Part shown: positions 485-33,055 of the stretch, one piece after another | Layout of the letters: every line of letters starts with the position of its first letter | Position numbering within the stretch: position 1 is the first letter of the stretch | IMG/VR virus record: IMGVR_UViG_3300032285_002075 | Span: 1-35,272 of that record | DNA from: a virus | Strand: one strand, 5' to 3' | Length of the DNA: 35,272 bases | Notes under the pieces: model-generated | What the model was told of the DNA's origin: nothing | The model's input: only the letters and a program-made list of their open reading frames with translations | The model's database searches: none | Made by a program: the position numbers and the translations under genes

Positions 485-2067
485 TGTTTTTTGGGTTTGG
501 GTGCCACAGGTGTTGGCGCAGGCTCAACAGGGGCGGTGCCATCGGGCGATGCAGGTTCAGGGGTCGCATCAGGAGTGGCTTGCTCTGTGCCCTTCGCGTC
601 AACGGCACCGCTATCCGTATCAAAGGTGAGGCCAAGCTCTTGCGCTTGCTCCAACTCGGCGGCACGAGCAGTCAACAGCTCTTCAAGGTCGCCACCAGAT
701 TGGGCAACGACTTCTGCTTGGGTCATGAACCCACAGCGCACAGCCTCTTTGTACGCCTGGACTTCTTTAAGCGGGTCAACCCATGCCCAGCCGCGAGGCA
801 TCCATCGCGCGGCGTTGTAACGCTTGGCGTCAAGGTCGTAACCCGGCAGATTTAATTCACCGGAAAGCACGCCAAGATCCAACCAGGCGTCAAACACCAC
901 CTGATGGAGGTTTTCAACTAGCCAATCTTGAAGCACGCGGTAGTGATCACGATCTTCAAGCAGTGACAGCCGGCTGCTGCTGTAATTGGTTTGGCTGAAG
1001 TCGCGGCTGACGGTTTCGTAGCTCACCCCAAGGCCAGCCGCCACGGCACGCAGCATCTGCCGCATAAAGGGCTCAAACGTATCCGGCCGCTGGAGGCTGG
1101 GCACCGTGAAGGATTCACCCGGCGCCAAATACTTGATGGTCCCAGGCTCAAACGATGTGACGCGCTCGCCATCTTCAATCGCTTCCTCCACCAGCTGGCC
1201 TTCAGGGGAGGACACAAAGCCCATCAGCGATGCGCCAGCGCGTGCCGCAATCACCTCGCTTTGCTCGTAGCCCGAGAGATGGTGAAGCCGGGTCAGCGCC
1301 GAAGCAAACCAAGGAATGCCCCGTGTTTGAAGCGGACGATCGGCGCGGAACAGATGGATGACTTCTTCAGCCGGCACCCGAACCCGTTTTTGATAGGGGT
1401 TGCCTTTTTGCCCGTACTGAAAATCACCGGGGTGTTTTTGGAAAAAGTAGTAGGCCACTGGCCGCTGCCAGCGATCTACCTCAACACCCATCCTGACTTC
1501 ATTGCCGTTCTCGCCAACGCCGTTGTAGTTGTCATCCAGTAGATCAGATTCAATGATCTCCAGCGCCAAGGGGATCTTCGAGCGCCCAAACGGCTGTTTA
1601 ATCAGGCGCAGGATCACCTCACCTGATTCAGCCACGCTGGTGATCGCAAGCCGTTCAATGTCGGCAAAGCACATGCGGCCGGCCACATCACAGCTGTCCT
1701 TGCGGCACCAATCCGCCCATGCCGCCTCGATGGCATCGTTGATCTTGGTGTCGAGTTTGCCGCCGCGCTGCTTGCGCACCTGCGACTGAAACTTGATGCC
1801 GGTGCCCACCACGTTGGTGGCAATGGCACGCAACGCCTGGCGGGCGTAATCGTTATCCCTGACAAGCTGCCGGACGCGGTTGCGCAAGATGCGCAAGCTG
1901 CCGCGCACCTCAGCATCCTGGCTGGTGCCCTGGCTGATCCAATCGCTGGTCAGCCGCGACAGCATCGCGCCTTCATACGACCGGCGCCGTGGTGTCACCG
2001 CCGGCACCTGCGGCTCAGCCTTGGCCTTGAAACCAAGGGCTTCACGAATAGAGAATCCGAATGGCAT
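481..2067 (-). CDS. Portal protein (lambda gpB family)
   Basis: This 528-aa protein matches the lambda-type portal family, which forms the dodecameric ring at the unique capsid vertex through which DNA is packaged. Recognisable segments are the N-terminal RRRSYEGAMLSRLTSDW region (28-44), RNRVRQLVRDNDYARQA (62-78, the usual arginine-rich helix) and NVVGTGIKFQSQV (about 85-97). The middle contains EEVIHLFRADRPLQTRGIPW, the typical HxF/RxxRPxQxRGxPW motif of this family. The C-terminal 50 residues are acidic and Pro/Ala-rich. The length matches the family (about 500-530 aa). The start at 2067 overlaps the gpW-like stop as TGATG, implying translational coupling. Confidence 0.95.
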   Translation of the reverse strand: MPFGFSIREALGFKAKAEPQVPAVTPRRRSYEGAMLSRLTSDWISQGTSQDAEVRGSLRILRNRVRQLVRDNDYARQALRAIATNVVGTGIKFQSQVRKQRGGKLDTKINDAIEAAWADWCRKDSCDVAGRMCFADIERLAITSVAESGEVILRLIKQPFGRSKIPLALEIIESDLLDDNYNGVGENGNEVRMGVEVDRWQRPVAYYFFQKHPGDFQYGQKGNPYQKRVRVPAEEVIHLFRADRPLQTRGIPWFASALTRLHHLSGYEQSEVIAARAGASLMGFVSSPEGQLVEEAIEDGERVTSFEPGTIKYLAPGESFTVPSLQRPDTFEPFMRQMLRAVAAGLGVSYETVSRDFSQTNYSSSRLSLLEDRDHYRVLQDWLVENLHQVVFDAWLDLGVLSGELNLPGYDLDAKRYNAARWMPRGWAWVDPLKEVQAYKEAVRCGFMTQAEVVAQSGGDLEELLTARAAELEQAQELGLTFDTDSGAVDAKGTEQATPDATPEPASPDGTAPVEPAPTPVAPKPKKQ

Positions 2068-2657
2068 CAGTGGAACCGCACGAATAGGTTGCGGGGGTTG
2101 CCAAGGCCGTTGGCCATGTCCTCCGCGATTCTCTCGCGGTAAACCCGTGCCTTCAGTCTGCCTTCTAATTCCATCAGATCAGTCATCGACATCTTCCGCA
2201 GATGCCGGTTGCCGATTGTGTACTCCTGCACGGCGCCGCCGCTGACCATGGAGCGGATCGCAGCTTGCACCGCCTCTAAATCAATCGCGCTTTGCGTCCG
2301 CCCATCAAACGCGCCAGGGGTGCCCGTATAGCTCAGCGCGGCCTTGACAGTGACCTGACCAGCACCAGCCGTGATGCTGTCCGTGCCCTTGGTGGCAATG
2401 GCCTGGAAATAGTAAGTCCCAGCAGCCAGCGTGGCGCTCACGGCCGCCGACAGGGTGAAAGCCCAGCCGGATCCATAAGCTGTGCCCACCACTGTCGTCC
2501 CCGCGCTTGCCGTGTTTGTGCGCAAGTAATACTTCAGCGTCCAGTCAGTGCTGGTAACTGCATTGCCGAGATAATCCGACGTGGCATCGTCACGCCACTG
2601 CACCGTGTCACCGGCCTGGATTGTCGCGGGGATGTTCACGGCCTTACCAGTTGGCAA
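2067..2657 (-). CDS. gpW-like head-tail joining protein with N-terminal beta domain
   Basis: This 196-aa protein sits between terminase and portal, as W does in lambda. Its last ~75 residues (AVQAAIRSMVSGGAVQEYTI, then TDLMELEGRLKARVYRER) match the two-helix plus beta-hairpin pattern of gpW, which seals the filled head and joins the tail. The first ~105 residues are rich in Thr/Ala and beta-like (AGDTVQWRDDATSDY, GTYYFQAIATKGTDSI), consistent with an Ig-like or similar beta-sandwich. I believe this two-part architecture occurs in other phages. The start is TTG at 2657, inside the terL end. It is preceded on the coding strand by AGAAGG at good spacing, which favours it over a GTG six codons later. 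Confidence 0.75.
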   Translation of the reverse strand: MPTGKAVNIPATIQAGDTVQWRDDATSDYLGNAVTSTDWTLKYYLRTNTASAGTTVVGTAYGSGWAFTLSAAVSATLAAGTYYFQAIATKGTDSITAGAGQVTVKAALSYTGTPGAFDGRTQSAIDLEAVQAAIRSMVSGGAVQEYTIGNRHLRKMSMTDLMELEGRLKARVYRERIAEDMANGLGNPRNLFVRFH

Positions 2658-4512
2658 CGAATGCCTTCTGGTTCGATCTTAGCTGCGCCGGCTTTGCCTT
2701 CTCTACTGGCTTTTCAAGGCGCTTTTCTAGCTGGTCCCAGATGGTTCTGCGGTCGTAACGCTGATACATCCGATTTAACGCCGCATAGGCGTACACCAGG
2801 CAATCCAATGCTTCATTCCTGGCGCTTGGTTTTTTAACCCATTCCCGAACCGGAAAGCCCTTTACATAACGCAACGACTGTTTTTCAGCCGTTAGCTGAT
2901 CGAAATACTCGTTTCCAGTTTGCGCATGAAAGTGCAAATAGCCTGGTCCGGGTTCGTTGTGCTTAAGCCGGCCGAACAACGTGGTCTTGATCGTGTCGCC
3001 GCCCACCGGAAACACCATTGCGCCACGTTTCAACGTTTGACCTCGCGCGTTGATGTCCACCTTCGTCGCCTTGCCAATCGGCGGCTTGCCCCGCTGGCTT
3101 TGACCCTTGATCGCTATCACGCCCTGCGCCTGCCGCTCCCGCGCGTATTGGTACACCTCCGCTGTCGCGTGGCCGCCGGAATCGCACGCCACTACATCGG
3201 CTCGCAATTTTGCGCCGCTCACGTGTTCCCATTCATGCAGCACCACAACGTCCAGCTGTTTCCACACTTCTGGCCGGCATGGATCCCCGTAGATCTCTTG
3301 GTGGTCCACCAACCAGCCCTCTTCCTCGCGCCCCCACGCCCACACACTCACCGCCAGGCGATCGCCCGCAGATCCGCCGCCACCCTGTACGTCAACGCCG
3401 ATCGTCACGACCAGCGCGCCTTCCGGCAAGCGGCCGGCTGCATAGGGTTCGCAACGTTGCAACAAAGCGTCGGCGCTCACCTTGCTCGCGTAATCCTCTT
3501 CCCAGGTTTCCGCCAACCGGGTGTTTACAAACGACTTCAACATCGGCGCATCAGCCTTTGCCCGCAGGAAGTCATCCACCATGTCCGACCAACTCAGCCA
3601 ACCAAGCGGGCTGTAAAGCCCCGACAACTGGAACCCTGCCGTCTTGCCATCGCTTGGTGCCGTCGCGCGCCACTCGCCCTTGCGCAGCATCACCGGCTTG
3701 TGGATCTCAGCAAACCGCTCGCGGCATTTCTCGCACTCATATTTCGCCGTGCTTGGGTCGTTATCTTGCCACTTCAACTGCGACCACTTCAGCCATTGCA
3801 TTGCCTCACAGTGCGGGCATGGCACAAAGTACCGCCGCTGATCGCTGCGCTCATACTCCGCCTCAATCCGGCTGAAGTCCTTCACCGTTGGGGTGCTGGT
3901 CAACAAGATCTTGCGCCGCGCAAATGTCGTTGCCCGCTTCTCCGCCAAGCTCACCGGGTCGCCCTCGCCGTCAACGTCCAGCGGGAATGCGTCCACCTCA
4001 TCGCAGAAAATGTACCGGCACGGCGTTGAGCGCAGCCCAGTCGCTGAGTTCGCCCCAGTCAGCAGCATCATCCCGCCGGGGAACTCTTTCGAAAACATCG
4101 TGTTTCCACTGTCTCGGCTGCGACTCGGTGCGATCCGTTCGCTCAGGCATGGCGTCTCGGTAATCATTGACTCCAGCCGCTGCTTACTCAGCCTCTTGGC
4201 CATCTCAACGGTTGGCTGCACCGCAAGCATCGGACCAGGCGCGTGCGCGATCACATAGCCCAGCCAGTTACTGCCGGCCTCGGTCTTGCCTGTCTGCGCC
4301 GCAAACATCAGCACCACCCGTTGGATCGGGCTGTTGCTGCTCAACACATCCATCGGCTCGCGCAGATACGGCGTCCGATGCGTGCGCCATGGTCCAGGCT
4401 CAGCACTCGCCTTGCTGCTCAGCATCCGGTAACGATCAGCCCATTCGCTCACCGTCAGATCAGGCTCAGGCCGCAAGCCTTCTAAGAATGCTTTCCGGTA
4501 AACCTCAGCCAT
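2644..4512 (-). CDS. terL: Terminase large subunit (lambda gpA family)
   Basis: This 622-aa ATPase-nuclease packages and cuts phage DNA. Walker A is AAQTGKTE (71-78), Walker B is RYIFCDEVD (166-174) and a coupling motif LLTSTP lies at 203-208. A zinc-binding insertion has cysteine pairs at 232/235 and 260/263. The C-terminal RNase-H-like nuclease shows the acidic residues D374 (IGVDVQGG), D444 (VVACDSGGH) and a late DCLVYAYAAL segment. Length and motif order fit the lambda gpA/GpA family rather than T4- or HK97-type terminases, which suggests cos packaging. It overlaps terS by 8 nt. The 369-aa open frame on the opposite strand (2920-4029) is a shadow. Confidence 0.96.
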   Translation of the reverse strand: MAEVYRKAFLEGLRPEPDLTVSEWADRYRMLSSKASAEPGPWRTHRTPYLREPMDVLSSNSPIQRVVLMFAAQTGKTEAGSNWLGYVIAHAPGPMLAVQPTVEMAKRLSKQRLESMITETPCLSERIAPSRSRDSGNTMFSKEFPGGMMLLTGANSATGLRSTPCRYIFCDEVDAFPLDVDGEGDPVSLAEKRATTFARRKILLTSTPTVKDFSRIEAEYERSDQRRYFVPCPHCEAMQWLKWSQLKWQDNDPSTAKYECEKCRERFAEIHKPVMLRKGEWRATAPSDGKTAGFQLSGLYSPLGWLSWSDMVDDFLRAKADAPMLKSFVNTRLAETWEEDYASKVSADALLQRCEPYAAGRLPEGALVVTIGVDVQGGGGSAGDRLAVSVWAWGREEEGWLVDHQEIYGDPCRPEVWKQLDVVVLHEWEHVSGAKLRADVVACDSGGHATAEVYQYARERQAQGVIAIKGQSQRGKPPIGKATKVDINARGQTLKRGAMVFPVGGDTIKTTLFGRLKHNEPGPGYLHFHAQTGNEYFDQLTAEKQSLRYVKGFPVREWVKKPSARNEALDCLVYAYAALNRMYQRYDRRTIWDQLEKRLEKPVEKAKPAQLRSNQKAFVANW

Positions 4513-20437: not shown

Positions 20438-22900
20438 TTAGCGGGCGCGGGCATAAGCGAATGGATTAAGGGCAAATGCCGCATAGATAAAAGTGCCAGC
20501 GCTGCCGTTGGTGTCAGCAGTGCCGTTACGCAGTTTGAAGCCATTGCTTAATAGGTCAATGGTGCGCACGGTGTCGTTAGTTTCCGCAACAGCTTGATCG
20601 GAAAACAATTGACGTTGCACTTGGTTGAAGCCGGGGCGTTGATAATCAGAAATTGCCCAGCTGTAGCCGGCCGTGTCAGTCCGTTTGATCATGACAAAAG
20701 CGGGAGCAAAATTGCACGCTACAAATGGACCATCTGAGCTGCCGTTGCCGGTGTAGGAACCGAAAGCGCTGTAGGAACTCACTGGGGCGAAACAGTAAGC
20801 CACATAGGTCCATCCACTGTTGTTATTCAAGCCGACGTTCCCAGGGACGCTGAATACCGTTGAGGTCGGAGCAGATGATCCCCAGATTCCCGAATAAGCG
20901 GTACTGGCTCCTGTTGAATCAAGCAGCAGGTAGTTATTGATCCCAACGTCTTTGTGGTAAACGCCCCAGCTCTGAGCGTTGCTTCGTGCTTTGCAAATAA
21001 TTAGACTCGGCGCCACACCAAGGCCATGACCAATAGTCCCAGCCGACGCTTGACCTGTCCATGTGATCACCGACAACCCCGCCGTCGCATTAGCCCTCAC
21101 AGTTGAGCTAATGCTGCCGTTGTTATTTGTGGCACTAGAGCTGCCTGCATCCCAGCACCAAGCAACGTAGGTAGCGGAACTGGTGTTGTAATTTCCACCA
21201 GTGCCCAATGTAAAACCGTTGCTATTAAAAGCCGTCACGCCACTGTCTACGGTTTCAGCAGCAGCGGTGTCTGTCACCAAGCCATTGTTCACGCCACGCA
21301 CTGTGTCGCTGATCTTGTTGCTGGTTGCATTAGACCGTGACTTAAGCCAAACCAGATCAGGGCTGAAACCAAGCGAACTGGTTGGTGTCTGAGCAGATCC
21401 TGTGCCCGTATAAAGCACCACGTCCATCACCGTGGAAGGCTTCACAACGGTGGGCGCGGGTAGGTTTGCCGTGCAGAGCGCCTTGAAGCCGCTGGGGGCG
21501 GTGTAGGCGAAGGGGCGTTGGCCGAAGTTGGCTTGCATAGTGGAACTACCCGTGGCTCCGCGTATGGCACAAAATGGATAAAGCGTTTTGTTTGCGGTAA
21601 TCGTTTGAATAGCATTTGTTCCCGCCCCAGGATTCCCGCTAGTTCCACCGCCGCTGCTATACCAAGTGTTATTTTTAGACAGCCATAGTTTAATGTTTGC
21701 GTAGTCTGAAGCATCAACTGCTACACCAATTACATCGCCATTAGCGACTGAGCTTGCACCCCAAGGATTTCCGCTGCCATCAATGTAGTTAATTGCAGGG
21801 TTCATGTAAAACCCGTATTCATTGGTTAATGTCACACCCGGATCAGCAGTCAGGCTTCTGCTGTCATTGAGGATTCCTACAAATGGAGTTGACACTGTTT
21901 CAAGCGTTACCTCCCAATACCATTTGCCAACAGGAATGCCAAAAGATCCTTGAAAGCCACCCGTTATTGAGCCAGAGACTTGAAGGTTGCCGTTTGAAAG
22001 ACCGCTTGTAGGCGCTGAGCTTGAACCGTTACCAAGGGGGGTAAAGACGCAGTAGTTCCCCTTAACCTCACCGCCCGCTCCGGTATCCGTCTGCGCCCCG
22101 TTAGTGGGAACGTCTACGAGGCTGTCGTTGCCTGCACCAGCGGTGACACTGAAGTTATTTGGTGTCCAATTATTCGACCCCGCAGAGTCCTTCCCTAGTG
22201 TGGTGGCGGTTGCTGCCGAGTTGTCCGCGAAATCGAGGTGCCAGCCATTGGTCCCGTATGATCCGCCGCTAAAAGCTTTCGGGATGAGCTGGCCGGTGGT
22301 GGCGTCGGTGGTGGTGAAGCTGCTGGGGTCAAGTGCTTGGCCGTCGATGAAGTAAACGTCGGCTAGGTATGCGTCTAAATAGCCAGAGTTGCCAGCGTCG
22401 TAGCCAATGCGATGCGCAACAGCAGAGTTTATAACGCTGGCCTGAGACGAATCTGGATATGTGACTGTATTAAATGCAGTAATACGATTGCCGTTGATGT
22501 ACACCCTAAGACGGTCAGTTGAGGTGCCATTTGCGGAGTCGTAAACAAATACTAAATGGAACCATGCACTTACATCCCTGAAAACAGCCGTTGTCTGCAA
22601 AACTGCGATGGTGCCGCTGGTCGGTCTATTGGCAAACCTGACTCCATTATCAGAAAAATCTAAATACGCATAATTAGAGCCTGACCCAGCGTCAAAAATT
22701 CCGCGATAATCGGTAGAAGTGGTGTTAAGAGTCTTTTTGATCCAGCCAGCCCACGTCCATGCCGTGCTTGAGGTAGGCGTTGAAAATGTACGAGGTCCTA
22801 GATATGCAGAATCCGGGGAATTGAAGCGGAGGGATCTACTCACCCCGGTGGCCGATGCAGCCGGTGCAGTGAGCAGGAGGTTGTTGTTAATCACGCTCAT
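20438..22900 (-). CDS. Tail fibre with LamG- and SPRY-like domains
   Basis: This 820-aa protein is probably a receptor-binding fibre. Residues ~20-200 form a LamG/concanavalin-like domain (WTWAGWIKKTLN, FHLVFVYDSANG, RLRVYINGNRIT, YLADVYFIDG). A SPRY-like region follows at ~320-345 (GKWYWEVTLETVSTPFVGIL). The C-terminal half carries motifs such as SPDLVWLKSRS, GFTLGTGGNYN and AFVMIKR, recurring in DUF7483-like cyanophage fibres. It overlaps the preceding fibre gene by ATGA. Thr/Ser/Gly-rich composition is typical of fibres. Confidence 0.8.
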   Translation of the reverse strand: MSVINNNLLLTAPAASATGVSRSLRFNSPDSAYLGPRTFSTPTSSTAWTWAGWIKKTLNTTSTDYRGIFDAGSGSNYAYLDFSDNGVRFANRPTSGTIAVLQTTAVFRDVSAWFHLVFVYDSANGTSTDRLRVYINGNRITAFNTVTYPDSSQASVINSAVAHRIGYDAGNSGYLDAYLADVYFIDGQALDPSSFTTTDATTGQLIPKAFSGGSYGTNGWHLDFADNSAATATTLGKDSAGSNNWTPNNFSVTAGAGNDSLVDVPTNGAQTDTGAGGEVKGNYCVFTPLGNGSSSAPTSGLSNGNLQVSGSITGGFQGSFGIPVGKWYWEVTLETVSTPFVGILNDSRSLTADPGVTLTNEYGFYMNPAINYIDGSGNPWGASSVANGDVIGVAVDASDYANIKLWLSKNNTWYSSGGGTSGNPGAGTNAIQTITANKTLYPFCAIRGATGSSTMQANFGQRPFAYTAPSGFKALCTANLPAPTVVKPSTVMDVVLYTGTGSAQTPTSSLGFSPDLVWLKSRSNATSNKISDTVRGVNNGLVTDTAAAETVDSGVTAFNSNGFTLGTGGNYNTSSATYVAWCWDAGSSSATNNNGSISSTVRANATAGLSVITWTGQASAGTIGHGLGVAPSLIICKARSNAQSWGVYHKDVGINNYLLLDSTGASTAYSGIWGSSAPTSTVFSVPGNVGLNNNSGWTYVAYCFAPVSSYSAFGSYTGNGSSDGPFVACNFAPAFVMIKRTDTAGYSWAISDYQRPGFNQVQRQLFSDQAVAETNDTVRTIDLLSNGFKLRNGTADTNGSAGTFIYAAFALNPFAYARAR

Positions 22901-27072: not shown

Positions 27073-27672
27073 TCAAGCTTCCTCCGTGTTGATACCGGCA
27101 GAGATCACAATGGATCCGATTAAACATTCGCCGAAAACAATTGGGACTGGCACGCCTTGCCTGGCTACGTTTTGAATGCCGCTGAAAGAATAGCTTTTGC
27201 GAGGATCATTAGTTGAATCGGTACCAGTGGACATTTTTTGAGTCGGCGTCAAAAGTTGAGAAACGCCACCCAATAGAAGGCTGGCACCAACGCCAAACAA
27301 CACAGAGCTGCCAAAAGCACCTGCAACTCCCACGCCAGCAAATGCGCCAGCGCCAAAACTGACGAACGAAAGCGCCACCAATGCAACGCCAGCAAGAATG
27401 CGCCCTACGGCACCGGCTCCAGTCACAACCGGCACAATGCGAATAGGCTCAGCCTGGGCGACTGGGTAATGCAATTGCTCTGGATGCGCACCAGCTTCTA
27501 GTTCGGCTTTGCCAACTCCCACTTTGTAGTGCTGGTCAGCCATGTGCACCTTCAGGCCGGGGAAATTGGCCACCAGGAATCTGACTGCTTCAGCCGGGGT
27601 ACTTACTGCTGCTTTGAAAGTGCGCTTGCCGAGGAACTTGGCCAGCGACCCATAAACCTTGATGACGCGCAT
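27073..27672 (-). CDS. Tail assembly protein I (lambda gpI family)
   Basis: This is 199 aa from ATG 27672, which overlaps the K-like stop (TGATG); GTGs three codons upstream (27681) and one codon upstream are alternatives. It shows the gpI pattern: RVIKVYGSLAKFLGKRTFKA, a glycine-rich hydrophobic stretch (GRILAGVALVALSFVSFGAG), and a C-terminus with YSFSGIQNVARQGVPVPIVF near GECLIGS. Lambda gpI is needed to build the tip but is absent from virions. Position between K and J fits. Confidence 0.87.
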   Translation of the reverse strand: MRVIKVYGSLAKFLGKRTFKAAVSTPAEAVRFLVANFPGLKVHMADQHYKVGVGKAELEAGAHPEQLHYPVAQAEPIRIVPVVTGAGAVGRILAGVALVALSFVSFGAGAFAGVGVAGAFGSSVLFGVGASLLLGGVSQLLTPTQKMSTGTDSTNDPRKSYSFSGIQNVARQGVPVPIVFGECLIGSIVISAGINTEEA

Positions 27673-28382
27673 CACTGGCACCTGCTGGAATGGCGAAGCA
27701 CACGGCCTGTGTTCTTCTGATAGTAGCCACCATAAATGTCGCGTGAGCTGAGGCGGCCTTGGATGTGGTGAAGGATGAGTTGATCACCCACATAAACAGC
27801 GCAATGGTTGAGGCCGGGGCTATTCAACGAAATCAGCAGCAAGTCGCCAAACTGGATGTCATCACGATCAATTTCGACAAAGCCGGTCTCTTTCCAGCAG
27901 CGGTCAAACATCGGATCCTGGTTGAACTCAGATTGCAATGCAGGACGCGGCCAATCACGCAGTTCAAGCATCCATGTTTCCTGATACCACTGATGAGCAA
28001 GGCTCCAGCAGTCCTGCACACCCCACACCCATTCACGTCCTAGCAATGGGGCTTTGAAGCCTGATGGCTTGGTCTCGGTCCATGCTTCGGTGCCAGGATT
28101 GACAATAAACCACGGCAAACCGGACTTTTCGCAGGCCACCAGATCCGCTTGGCTTGGTGTCGCTGGTGTGGTGGGGTGGCTATGGACAACCGCCATCACC
28201 TCGCCTGCTTCCTCAGCAGCAACAAAATCATCCGGCGCTAGAACAAAAAACTCATCGCCCTCGGCCAGGTTGTTGCAAGGCCAATAACGCTGTCTGCCCT
28301 TGACTACGACCAGCAAACCACAAGCCTCCCTTGGCGCTTCAGCCAAGGCGTGCTCAAGGGCGTCTTGCTTCCAATTATCCAT
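27672..28382 (-). CDS. Tail tip assembly peptidase (lambda gpK family)
   Basis: This 236-aa two-domain protein has an N-terminal JAB/MPN metalloprotease with E19 (REACGLL) and [16 protein letters not shown] (H67, H69, D80), the JAMM signature. The C-terminal NlpC/P60 domain has C125 (VQDCWSL), H193 ([10 protein letters not shown]) and a following HH pair at 205-206. Lambda gpK acts in tip assembly and such proteins may also cut peptidoglycan crosslinks on DNA entry. Both catalytic sites appear intact. It overlaps gpL by 8 nt. Confidence 0.92.
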
Positions 28383-29958
28383 AGAAAGTACCTAGCGAGG
28401 GGAAACTGCCAAATGGCAATTCCGCATTCGCACCAAATCTTGCTTTGCAACTAGACAATCGCTTTCCGCAAACGTCTTTGGCAGGATCGACGGTGATTAA
28501 CGATGAAGCGCCGGAAACAATCCTTGGCTCAACACTTGACGTATAGCCCGAAGCCCAAATGGCTCGATTGCCGCTGTCAAATAGGACAAGGTTGCCGTCA
28601 TTTTGCATCACTAAATTGTTGTTGGCGTACCCGCTGGTGCCAGTGATTTGAATCTGAGGACCGGCATAGGTAAGAGTGCCAACAGGTGTATTGCGGAACG
28701 GGTTATTGCCGCTGAGGTTGACCGTTGCATTAAAGGTTTCGTTGACCTGCCAAAAGCCTTGGGATCCGACAATGGTTGCCGACTGCAATTCCCATTTGTA
28801 ATTTTGACCGCTCCAGTGACCGGGTGGGAACTGAACTGCGCTGGCTGTAAACCTGATGCTTGCGTAGCGGCCTGGGGATAGGTCCGTTGGTGAAGCAAAG
28901 GTGCGTGTTACAGAGGCAGACCCGCCGCCATTGGCACTACCAAATAACTCCCATCCAAACGATGCTGAGCGGCCTTGCGAAATGTCCGCTGGCACCCAGC
29001 CAATAGCGCCTCCCGAATCTCGAATAAAGTCAATGCTAGTAACGCCTACGCCAGTGTTTGCCGTGTGAGTTTGCCATATGTATTTATTGGCATTGACATC
29101 AATAATTGTCAGATCACCATCAATCCCGTTGCGAAGTCTGTAGGATCCATTTCCAAATACAGTGTTGCTAGTCCAAACTGCAGTTCCATTTTTGGAGTAA
29201 ACAACAAGGTTCCCATCAGCCTGCATGATGGCGCGATACCAACCGTTGTTGGAAACCATCTGGTTGGATGAATACAGACTTTGGCCAAAACCGAGACTGC
29301 TAAATGTATTGGTAATGTTGGGCGCTGGGTCTGTGAGAACCGTGTCGTCGTATTCGTTGAAGTAGGTGGTGCCTGTGTAGCCGCACTCGGGACCGCGATA
29401 GGTCCATTGGCAGATGTTGGCAATGCACTGACGTTTTGGAGCACGAACACCGGCAAGATCAAATACGGCAGCCAACTCAAACTCGACAAAATCACGGTTT
29501 TCGTTGGCTTTGCGATCCACGTAATAGATCTCACGGGGCATTTCATCGTTACTTGGCGTGCCATAAGGATTGACACCACCTGCAAAATTGATGGGATCAA
29601 GAAAACGGCTAAGGGTGCGAATGCGAATAAACTTTGCGCCGGTCAGGTCATTGCCAGGCGTAATCTCGTTAACGCCAAGCAACAATGCCGAAATGCTGCC
29701 AAGCAAATTAGCGACTTTTACCTTGGGTCGGGGCAATTGACCGTTGCCACTGTATTCAAAACCTTCGACTTCAACAGGCAAGGCTTGATACACGTTGGTC
29801 TGCCACACAACATCACCCGATGGAAGAGTTTGATTGACACCACCGTGAAAACGCACGATTCCATTACTGCCGTGCAACTCTTGAACAAGATGCAGCTCAT
29901 ACAGCTCGATGATGGCGTAAGGGGAGCTTTTGAGCAGCTCCTGAAACATCTCGCTCAT
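28375..29958 (-). CDS. gpL-like minor tail protein with inserted lectin
   Basis: This 527-aa protein is more than twice the usual ~230. Residues 1-195 match lambda gpL ([33 protein letters not shown]). The family's C-terminal end follows only at 495-527 ([20 protein letters not shown]). In lambda gpL four cysteines hold a [4Fe-4S] cluster; here C183 and C192, then C497 and C504, keep the two internal spacings. About 280 residues intervene. They carry bulb-type lectin repeats: QADGNLVVY (246-254), a weaker one at 280-297 (DGDLTIID...IWQT), and QNDGNLVLF (452-460) with WTS/WAS ends. A further ~140-residue domain sits between repeats two and three. Confidence 0.88.
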
Positions 29959-30290
29959 GGCTCAAACACCTGCACAAACGTTGCCGTGATGCTGTTGTTG
30001 TTGTAACTGCTCATTTCCATATTCCATTCGCTGCAAACGTATTTGCCGGCGCTGCCGCGTGGTGGTGTCCAGTCAAACGATTCAACGCCTGCCCTTGCTT
30101 CTAAAAATGCCAATATCCCATCGCGTTCAGCATTGGTCCGATTGGCAAAAGTGAGCTGCCAGGATTTGGAATCGGTATTGAGCCCATAGCGCAACCGCTG
30201 TTCATAACCGTCGCCAAATTGCACCTTGGCAACACGCGGCTTGCTGGCTTCGCTAGCGCTATAGCTCGGGGTGTAGGTGAAGGTTGCCAT
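29955..30290 (-). CDS. Minor tail protein M (lambda gpM family)
   Basis: This 111-aa protein has the gpM layout: YSASEASKPRVAKVQFGDGY, RLRYGLNTDSKSWQLTFANR, then AFLEARAGVESFDWTPPRG and a C-terminal beta strand. gpM connects the tube end to the tip. It starts 3 bp after the tape measure stop and overlaps L by ATGA. The length is close to lambda M (109 aa). Confidence 0.92.
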   Translation of the reverse strand: MATFTYTPSYSASEASKPRVAKVQFGDGYEQRLRYGLNTDSKSWQLTFANRTNAERDGILAFLEARAGVESFDWTPPRGSAGKYVCSEWNMEMSSYNNNSITATFVQVFEP

Positions 30291-30292
30291 AA

Positions 30293-33055
30293 TTATGCCG
30301 CCAGGAGGCCACCTGGGCGTTTCTGTTTAATCATCTCAGCTTGCACCGCTGCTGCAACCACCCGAGCCAACTGATTGCCCTTGCCAGAGTCGCCCTGCAC
30401 GCTGCTGCCTTTGGCATCCACGCTCACGTTAATGGTGGTGCCACCGCCGCCGCCAGCAACGCCGAGCTTGCCATCAGCGCCACGCTTAAGGGGGATGATA
30501 GCCTCAGGACCAGCTTCGCCCATCAGGCCAATGCCCTTGGCAAAGGGAAAAATGGTGGGGCGATCCACGATGCCGCCCATCGCGTAAGGCACGATGCCGT
30601 TGGCAGCAAAGACGTTGCCGTTGGCGTTGAGTTTCAAGGCGGGAAATAAATTGCCAATCCCTTGCAACAGCGGCTTCATGATGGCCTGTTGAATCGCAAT
30701 GCGGATCAGCTGCTTGATGATCTCGTTTGCGAAATCCTTGAAGCTGGCTTTGCCAGTGGTGACGAACTCCACCAGCTTGTCTTCCAACCCTTGAAATACG
30801 TTTTTGGTGACGTTGGAAATGCTATCCGCCAGGCTGCCGATGCCCTCCAGATAGCCGCGAATGCCTTTAGCAAAACCAAAACCGGCATCGTTGGCTAGGC
30901 GGTCCATCTCTTTAAATTGCTGCATGAGCGCATCAAGCTGCTCTTGTAGTCGCCTTGCCTCATCCGTAGCACCGCGCCCGTTGGCCTCTTGAATGCGGCG
31001 TTGGTAATCGTCGATTTCACGCTGGCGCTGCTCAGCCTCGCTGCCCTGCGTGGCACCGATGATGGCGTATCTGCTGCGGTTGCGAATATCCCCAATAGCT
31101 TTGGCTTGCTCTTGTGCTTGCTGTTTAAGCGCTTGAGTGGTTGCTTGGGTTTCAAGTTTTTGGTCTTGTTGAAGCTTAAGGCGTGCCTCGGCTTTTTTAA
31201 CAATTGAATCGGTGTAAGCAATTTGCTCTTTGAGCGCACGACTTTGCGGATCCATTTCTTTAACTGCATCTGCCAGCTTTTTTTGAAGCTCGTTTTCAAT
31301 CTTTAGCTCTTCAAGCTTTTCCTGTTTGTTAAGTGCATTCAAATGCGTTGCAGAAGTTGCCGCAATTAACCCGCGAGCCTTGAGGTCATTTTCTTGCAGT
31401 AGCAGATCGTTAATTTCTTTTTGACGTTCTAAATATGTAAATTGTTCTTGAGATGCAATTAGGTCTAGCCTTAGCTTTTCGCGTTCGGCGGCAAGCCTTG
31501 CGGCTTTATCGGCTGCATCTTTGGCGCCGGTATCTAGCGCGGAGAGATTGGGAATAAAAGCATCGGGCTTGAAAGAATTTGTTTTTTCGTTGTTGCTTTT
31601 TGCATTTGGGTTATTTGAAGCGCCCATGCTAAACGCCCGAAAATATACTGAAGCTGCATACCCGCCAGGTAGCGTATTCAAAACATTTTGCCCCGCTTGC
31701 CCTATTGCTGAACGTAAAGGGGCGGGAAGGCTGTTCCACCAGCCGGCAACAGTGGTGCTAATAGTAGCAAAAGCACTTCTGGCTTTAGAAACAAGCCAGC
31801 CAAACATTTTGCCAAAGCCATCTGCGACAACACTGGTGACATTTGCTGATGTTTCAACAAAGCCTTTCATGCTTTTGTTGACTGCTTCAAACGCAATTTT
31901 GGCGCTATCCGCAATGGCTTGCATTGCGCTTTGAAAATCTTCTTTTACGACAGTCCAAACATTGTTTGCCCAGTTCTGAAAATCTTTATTGTTGTTGTAA
32001 AGCGCCACACTTAAAGCCGTGAGCGCTGCGACGCCAGCAAGCGCCCAGCCCCATCCAGGGATCGCGTAAATGGCTGCCGATAGCGCTTCAATGCCACCAG
32101 TGAGCAAAGGCATCACGCCACCTGCTAGGGCAGCCTGATAACGCAAAATTTCGAGCCCGTTAGCGGCGATGGCAAACGCTGCTCCTGCGCCGCTAATCAA
32201 CCCGGTGATCGGTCCCCATGAGATAGCCAAGATGGCGCCGGCCACGGCGGTTGCTTTAACCGGTCCTGGCAATTTGTTGAACGCATCAATGGCGCCGCCG
32301 ACTACATCGGTGATTTTTTCCAACGCCGGCAGCAGCGCGATCAACAAATCAGCGCCAAGAGCACCGACTTTGCCGCTGAGCATTGCAAGCTTATCGCTGT
32401 ACTCATCCGCCCTTTGCGCAAAGGCGGTGGTCATTTTGACCTTGAGCTTGTCAATAGCATCGCCGCCCATGTTGAGCAGCGGGATCATGTCCGCGCCCGC
32501 CTTACCGAAATACTTCAGCGCCAATGCCGTTTTGGCGACGCCATCAGGCATCCGTTTGAAGCGGTCTGCGATTTCAAGAAAGACGGAATCGGCAGATTTC
32601 AAATTGCCGCTGGAATCTTTAACGGAAATGCCGAGCGCTTTGAAAGCTGCTTGCGATTGCGTGCCACCAGTGCCGGCGTCGAGCATGGCCTTGCTCAGCT
32701 TCACAAGGGCTTTGCTGACGCTTTCCAGATCCGTGCCGCTAACCGCTGCGGCCTTTTTGAATCGCGCTAACGCCTCAACGCTGACGCCCGTGCGCTGAGA
32801 CATATCGTTCAGCGCATCACCGGCTTCCAATGCGTTCTTGGCCAGCCCCACAAGGCCAGCCACAGAGGCAAGCGGAGCCAAGGCGCCCAACGCACCGGAT
32901 AGGCCAGCAGACGCGCCAGCGAGACCACGCATGGCGCCTGTGACGCCCTTGGCCGTGCCTTCCACGGCGGCAAGGCCACGGTTGAGCGAAACGATATTGT
33001 TGACGCCTTCAACGTTGGCTTTGATATTCAGCGCGGCGTTCATATTCATCGCCAT
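30293..33055 (-). CDS. Tape measure protein (lambda gpH-like)
   Basis: This 920-aa protein sets tail length. The N-terminal part has LNRGLAAVEGTAKGVTGAMR, followed by LNDMSQRTGVSVEALARF (tape-measure family). Two hydrophobic regions lie at about 270-305 and 330-358 and may enter the host membrane. A long coiled-coil region (about 510-690, LRLDLIASQEQFTYLERQ) is AT-richer than its surroundings at the DNA level. The lambda-type C-terminal domain reads FVTTGKASFKDFANEIIKQL, with RIAIQQAIMKPLL. At ~1.5 angstrom per residue a tail near 130-140 nm is expected (inference). Confidence 0.93.
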   Translation of the reverse strand: MAMNMNAALNIKANVEGVNNIVSLNRGLAAVEGTAKGVTGAMRGLAGASAGLSGALGALAPLASVAGLVGLAKNALEAGDALNDMSQRTGVSVEALARFKKAAAVSGTDLESVSKALVKLSKAMLDAGTGGTQSQAAFKALGISVKDSSGNLKSADSVFLEIADRFKRMPDGVAKTALALKYFGKAGADMIPLLNMGGDAIDKLKVKMTTAFAQRADEYSDKLAMLSGKVGALGADLLIALLPALEKITDVVGGAIDAFNKLPGPVKATAVAGAILAISWGPITGLISGAGAAFAIAANGLEILRYQAALAGGVMPLLTGGIEALSAAIYAIPGWGWALAGVAALTALSVALYNNNKDFQNWANNVWTVVKEDFQSAMQAIADSAKIAFEAVNKSMKGFVETSANVTSVVADGFGKMFGWLVSKARSAFATISTTVAGWWNSLPAPLRSAIGQAGQNVLNTLPGGYAASVYFRAFSMGASNNPNAKSNNEKTNSFKPDAFIPNLSALDTGAKDAADKAARLAAEREKLRLDLIASQEQFTYLERQKEINDLLLQENDLKARGLIAATSATHLNALNKQEKLEELKIENELQKKLADAVKEMDPQSRALKEQIAYTDSIVKKAEARLKLQQDQKLETQATTQALKQQAQEQAKAIGDIRNRSRYAIIGATQGSEAEQRQREIDDYQRRIQEANGRGATDEARRLQEQLDALMQQFKEMDRLANDAGFGFAKGIRGYLEGIGSLADSISNVTKNVFQGLEDKLVEFVTTGKASFKDFANEIIKQLIRIAIQQAIMKPLLQGIGNLFPALKLNANGNVFAANGIVPYAMGGIVDRPTIFPFAKGIGLMGEAGPEAIIPLKRGADGKLGVAGGGGGTTINVSVDAKGSSVQGDSGKGNQLARVVAAAVQAEMIKQKRPGGLLAA

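Follow-up and report, generated by a model that had tools for sequence, protein, structure and literature searches.

The window, that is, the whole stretch of DNA analysed here, is a 35,272-base IMG/VR virus record (IMGVR_UViG_3300032285_002075), whose tail genes keep the lambda-type order tape measure-M-L-K-I-J (Table 1). The gene at the L position encodes a homologue of the tail-tip hub protein gpL, which matches PF05100 over both the HDI and the Fe-S domain (E = 5.3e-56, 189.6 bits against a cut-off of 25) as well as PHROG 18 (phrog_18, 2.8e-80). With both ends of the protein aligned, it also matches lambda gpL (8iyk_L, 1.4e-23) and the BHP of the F2-pyocin (25vf, 1.2e-32) in the PDB. Membership in the PF05100 family is indicated jointly by the profile match, the gene order and a 9-x-7 cysteine spacing. 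The tail region of the window found no close DNA match among 50,697 annotated phage records.

Table 1. Features of the tail-tip region of the window (residue numbers refer to the gpL homologue)
Feature	Coordinates	Strand	Basis
Tape measure	30293-33055		lambda-type gene order
gpM homologue (distal tail protein)	29955..30290	-	PF05939 1.1e-30
gpL homologue (tail-tip hub protein L), 527 aa, ATG start	28375..29958	-	PF05100, phrog_18, PDB
HDI (tail-tube-like) domain of gpL, residues 1-182	29413..29958	-	aligns to lambda gpL N-terminal domain
Predicted [4Fe-4S] site, first half, C183 and C192	29383..29412	-	match lambda C173/C182
Whole insert, about residues 207-489	28492..29340	-	missing from close homologues L193-L217
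Bulb-type lectin repeats 1 and 2, residues ~215-302	29053..29316	-	PF01453 at 245-302; PDB MMBL chains; pLDDT 73-91
Putative sugar-binding motif 1, QADGNLVVY, 246-254, strict, intact	29197..29223	-	
Motif 2, GIDGDLTII, 278-286, degenerate in the window	29101..29127	-	
Nested beta-rich domain with one helix, residues ~303-430	28669..29052	-	family or fold match none
Bulb-type lectin repeat 3, residues ~431-476, closes the beta-prism	28531..28668	-	three-repeat Foldseek alignment 1xd5/1xd6
Putative sugar-binding motif 3, QNDGNLVLF, 452-460, intact by relaxed definition (F for Y)	28579..28605	-	
Predicted [4Fe-4S] site, second half, C497 and C504	28447..28470	-	match lambda C205/C212
gpK homologue (JAB and NlpC/P60)	27672..28382	-	PF14464 and PF00877
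gpI homologue	27073..27681	-	phrog_32 3.6e-49; PF06805 9.5e-5, slightly under cut-off
gpJ homologue (hub and central fibre), 1126 aa	23691..27071	-	phrog_31 1.6e-206

In lambda gpL the cluster is held by Cys173, 182, 205 and 212 (PMC10721106). The cysteines of the window protein lie at positions 178, 183, 192, 497 and 504, and the initial annotation had proposed that C183/C192 and C497/C504 keep the outer spacings of lambda while the middle gap is stretched. The proposal proved exact, with spacings of 9, 305 and 7 residues in the window against 9, 23 and 7 in lambda. The four ligands and their 9-x-7 spacing occur in all full-length relatives, the C183/C192 pair in every relative spanning that region, and D495, V496, C497, G498, K499, R500, S503 and C504 are invariant across 33 relatives, while C178 is an additional cysteine common to only some of them. 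The AlphaFold2 model of the protein falls below a pLDDT of 50 precisely in the Fe-S region (residues 166-195 and 490-527), and conservation together with homology are the grounds on which the four cysteines are taken here as a predicted [4Fe-4S] site.

A close inspection of homologues defined what has been added between the second and the third ligand. Our scans of IMG/VR recovered insert-bearing relatives (L001-L058, plus more) with the same insertion point, and insert-free homologues (L193-L217 and most of L218-L297) that mark the site by closing the Fe-S loop at 23 residues, their best-matching segments being ~50-62% identical to the inserted query. Because one of these, L193, runs straight across the site, the bounds of the insert can be set at about residues 207 and 489, and by alignment it is a clean loop insertion. 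At least 81 distinct sequences carry it, all from metagenomic viral contigs, and a search with the insert by itself through the 50,697 annotated phage records found none that carries it (best E 0.1). On a quick maximum-likelihood tree of 144 distinct gpL cores, the 68 lectin-bearing cores all lie to the same side of one branch (SH-aLRT 99), a topology consistent with one origin for the lectin insert.

The initial description of the insert as a bulb-type lectin is upheld by the predicted fold and by matches to MMBL chains in the PDB, the B_lectin profile being borderline for the window protein. PF01453 matched the window protein at 1.6e-7 with 32.2 bits, just under its cut-off of 32.4, and recognized 32 of the 33 alignment members at E<=0.1, with a best value of 2.9e-10. 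The two QxDxNxVx(Y/F) motifs reported at 246-254 and 452-460 were found exactly at these positions, and they are the sole matches in a six-frame scan of the window, when 0.002 would be expected per protein of like composition. The degenerate repeat that had been placed at 280-297 also exists, its motif aligning a little earlier, at 278-286. AlphaFold2 modelled the insert mostly at pLDDT 80-93, and Foldseek superposed the model on gastrodianin, a monomeric lectin (1xd5, 1xd6), with a TM of 0.88-0.90 by target, so that in the predicted fold the three repeats form one beta-prism. The alignment runs over 255-257 columns for a target of 110 residues, and the nested domain is therefore a gap in the lectin. 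Repeat 3 was also considered as the beginning of a second lectin, which could be ruled out because the relatives L114, L126, L136 and L164-L170 carry all three motifs intact and in register, as expected of a genuine third repeat, and because the Foldseek alignment closes a single prism.

The nested domain itself, originally estimated at ~140 residues between repeats 2 and 3, is indeed there, with ~128 residues. From an alignment of 37 sequences it was modelled with a pLDDT of 90.2 and a pTM of 0.84. A known family was sought in several ways, and nothing convincing emerged: Foldseek against the PDB gave a best E of 0.5, a profile search against PDB sequences returned a chance-level match, and the window's domain hit no family in Pfam or PHROGs, where its relatives showed scattered weak matches. 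A chain of the Sf11 tail (9occ_F) came up in the full-length Foldseek search, was absent from the nested-domain matches listed and was set aside. No conserved catalytic set is apparent in the 37-sequence alignment, whose invariant or near-invariant residues are T, W, G, F, N and P.

Altogether, we favour, with a probability of about 0.7, that this protein is a gpL hub carrying a monomeric bulb-type (MMBL, beta-prism II) lectin in its Fe-S loop, which would serve for reversible adhesion to sugars before gpJ or a fibre makes contact with the cell. In lambda, the Fe-S domain lies at the outer surface of the tip and gpL is present in three copies (PMC10721106, PMC11101478). By analogy with this outer position, the insert should be accessible in the assembled tip, and its display at the surface and binding of sugar are likely. 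With the stoichiometry of lambda, three copies of a lectin carried by the surface loop between ligands two and three of the [4Fe-4S] domain would ring the exterior of the tail cone in each virion. Each of them may then use its intact QxDxNxVx(Y/F) pockets to bind mannose- or deoxymannose-/rhamnose-like sugars in LPS, capsule or sheath, giving a reversible, avidity-driven adsorption that would orient the tip ahead of the committed contact through gpJ or a fibre. A contribution of the nested domain to specificity, by adding to it or tuning it, is probable, and the Fe-S cluster would act as a rigid clip or mount for the module, a sensing role not being indicated by the data.

How many of these pockets are kept is the point on which another explanation turns, in which the lectin would have a mainly structural part, decorating the tip or, as a brace, touching a neighbouring tail protein and not a cell sugar. 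By a relaxed definition, the motif is intact in 66 of the 81 distinct sequences for repeat 1, in 59 for repeat 2 and in 17 for repeat 3, and the pockets retained vary by lineage, the window keeping 1 and 3 and most relatives 1 and 2. The structural explanation is helped by the ten relatives that retain the insert with no canonical motif left, on account of which some copies of the lectin may not bind mannose-type sugars. On the other hand, 71 of the 81 hold at least one intact pocket, and the motif positions Q, D, N, V and Y of repeats 1 and 2 show a majority residue in 73-95% of the sequences, against a mean of 66% in the surrounding lectin, so we regard a mainly structural lectin as unlikely. 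Degenerate pockets are normal for this lectin family (PMC3585409). The QxDxNxVxY motif builds the mannose pocket of LlpA, and pyocin L1 binds D-rhamnose (PMC3585409, PMC6240691).

The initial annotation went further and suggested gpL as a primary receptor binder. In its full form, lectin-bearing gpL would determine the host range and open the tail by relaying ligand binding via the Fe-S domain. During opening of the tip, the 4Fe-4S domain of lambda rotates rigidly (PMC11101478), which would couple a mounted module mechanically to that event, and the insert evolves faster than the HDI core, with dN/dS values of 0.033 for HDI (the lowest), 0.054 for the lectin and 0.086 for the nested domain, the fastest-evolving part. 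Against this, gpJ is full length and has a candidate receptor-binding C-terminus of its own, with gp53-like (PF21882, 6.7e-5) and H-type-lectin-like (PF09458, 0.008) matches both below cut-off, and two genes further downstream resemble fibre or virion structural proteins. MMBL sites are usually weak binders of common sugars. A low affinity has indeed been described for LlpA (PMC6240691), and the trigger in lambda is gpJ (PMC11101478). With a candidate binding domain already present on gpJ, the claim that gpL is the primary receptor binder is possible but unsupported, and a host-range-determining gpL looks improbable to us. As for the genes themselves, the weak matches at the gpJ C-terminus probably provide the tip of this phage with another candidate sugar binder, unrelated to the lectin, and an 820-aa protein encoded at 20438-22900(-), which contains DUF7483 (2e-106) and strongly matches the 'virion structural protein' family PHROG 19943, is a probable fibre or decoration.

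All parts of gpL are under strong purifying selection. An origin of the insert in misassembly, or its being a decayed insertion, as the frame-shifted copies of lectin gpL in L187 (1989-2984 and 2617-3555) and in a MAG, L138, might suggest through sequencing error or decay, is refuted by intact frames on many independent contigs, by the 81 distinct sequences and by dN/dS values of 0.05-0.09, and has a negligible probability. In a prophage survey of the phylum of the MAG, PF05100 appeared in 1 of 388 genomes, which was the MAG itself.

The lectin is one of several modules found at this position of gpL. Between the same cysteines, the L253-L262 group and L303-L311 carry an apparent antiparallel coiled-coil hairpin of ~165-175 aa with a globular tip (examples are L253 2474-3727, L256, L257, L259, L262 and L303-L311), whose single origin (SH-aLRT 95) is separate from that of the lectin. 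In L312-L314 (ORF from 1447), gpL reaches ~690 aa, with an Fe-S loop of 107 residues including a weak CBM5/12-like segment (E 0.042) and with a second insert of ~330 aa after the fourth cysteine, for which no Pfam family was matched. With two further types of insert in the same gpL loop, the Fe-S loop qualifies as a recurrent insertion site. Changes also occur in the opposite direction, with a loop shortened to 9 residues in L272, L290 and others. Large inserts are not the rule, as the two lineages nearest to S-H1 and KBS-S-2A have the standard loop of 22-23 residues in 158 of 160 sampled loci, the loop not being measurable in the other two. A broader proposal would make the gpL-type [4Fe-4S] loop a general display port, on which unrelated modules are mounted independently and their binding is coupled to tail opening via the rotating Fe-S domain; such modules would be the bulb lectin with its nested domain of unseen fold, a coiled-coil stalk with its tip, and the CBM5/12-like and oligosaccharide-binding domains. 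We consider this generalization doubtful.

Other departures from the lambda plan were observed along the way. The entire Fe-S domain is missing from gpL in L299 (Cyanophage MED4-117, 1414-1986(-)) and in L060 (marine virus AG-345-A17, 1983-2975(+)), where the chain passes from SAPKR or RAPKR straight into a C-terminal FPS(V/I)GTF tail, one of the two viruses having been isolated on Prochlorococcus from station ALOHA. PMC13243795, with reference to Tam 2013, mentions lambda homologues in which the cluster has been lost. The gpL of AG-345-A17 additionally has, at residues ~130-270, an insert of ~120 aa in HDI that looks cupredoxin-like by eye only (FDVSDNTNATHPLRI...YYCSTHGNSMGN). An insert of 65 aa directly after the fourth cysteine occurs in L399, L462, L465, L469 and L471 (read in L399 and L462), and in L399/L462 it resembles, by eye, a small domain inserted into the gpM of cyanophage KBS-S-2A (L301 1122-1643). 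Finally, a 624-aa ORF from 972 in L290 has the gpL frame fused upstream to a long repetitive sequence (DAG..ALTGQDAGL-like), an apparent N-terminal fusion.

Regarding the host, the nearest terminase from an isolate is that of Synechococcus phage S-CBS3 (47%), the nearest gpJ that of Prochlorococcus phage MED4-117 (35%), and one of the best matches to gpL comes from Synechococcus phage S-H1 (45%). With cyanophages as the closest terminase, gpJ and one top gpL match, these similarities point to a cyanobacterial host. They are suggestive only, and gpL also has many relatives in proteobacterial phages.

PMC10721106 locates the gpL cluster at the outer surface and describes its functions as still to be characterized. 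In the proteins compared here it looks like a constant frame enclosing a loop into which phages have placed various modules, and a role in mounting surface-binding domains is suggested by this. The lectin family supplies, on a common scaffold, a natural series of proteins in which three, two, one or none of the sugar pockets are intact, together with insert-free homologues whose cores are ~60% identical.

No paper on bulb-type lectins in phage tails was found among those searched. Of the known systems, the closest architecture is that of the gene transfer agent RcGTA, in whose hub g13 (Rcc01696) an oligosaccharide-binding domain (168-249) interrupts the ion-binding domain (143-167 and 250-263) (PMC7296036). 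The hub of phage R4C (vBDshSR4C_014) follows the same plan, with 142-161, 162-243 and 244-266 (PMC10276861). In the R4C sequence we located the cysteines at 147, 157, 244 and 251, with spacings of 10, 87 and 7. Both are gpL-type hubs with a four-cysteine Fe-S domain interrupted by an insert that the authors named oligosaccharide-binding, and the insert sits between the second and the third cysteine in R4C (C157 to C244) as in the window (C192 to C497). The statement in the initial annotation that nested insertion is unusual thus has to be qualified, as RcGTA and R4C set a precedent for a sugar-binding-type domain between the Fe-S halves. Their ~82-aa domain, in contrast, is not a bulb-type lectin and has no domain nested in it, and its sugar binding was proposed by the authors from similarity of fold (PMC7296036, PMC10276861). 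Moreover, the R4C hub belongs to PF09931/PF09356 and not to PF05100, whereas the window protein matches PF05100 and B_lectin only, weak PF09356 matches appearing in 7 of 33 alignment members (best E 0.0054). In a profile comparison of gpL with the R4C hub, the sole alignment was a short segment including CDRTADTCRNRF, at very low probability, so the parallel rests on the cysteine pattern and the published structures. The gpL of the window would work like the RcGTA and R4C hubs without being a member of PF09931/PF09356. A sugar-binding-type domain between the two halves of a hub Fe-S site was already published for RcGTA and R4C; new here are the bulb-type lectin, the nested domain, the hub family PF05100 and the further types of insert.

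Lambda gpL (8iyk_L), T1 gp36 (9l9p_J) and the F2-pyocin BHP (25vf) share the HDI and Fe-S domains and the cysteine pattern, but are insert-free proteins of 231-260 aa, with a loop of about 23 residues in lambda. On the lectin side, gastrodianin, snowdrop lectin, pyocin L1 and LlpA (MMBL) share the beta-prism and its three QxDxNxVxY pockets, of which some are degenerate; they are, however, free-standing or tandem lectins or bacteriocins and not part of a tail hub, and in none of the PDB matches examined is there a nested domain separating repeats 2 and 3. The evolved Dit (evoDit) of lactococcal skunaviruses differs in that Dit is not the hub, the hosts are Gram-positive, the CBM folds are others and there is no metal cluster. 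It nevertheless carries a carbohydrate-binding module in a loop of a conserved tail-tip protein, and the inserted domain was shown to promote adsorption to EPS+ hosts (PMC10688798), making it the nearest demonstrated functional parallel to the lectin-bearing gpL described here.
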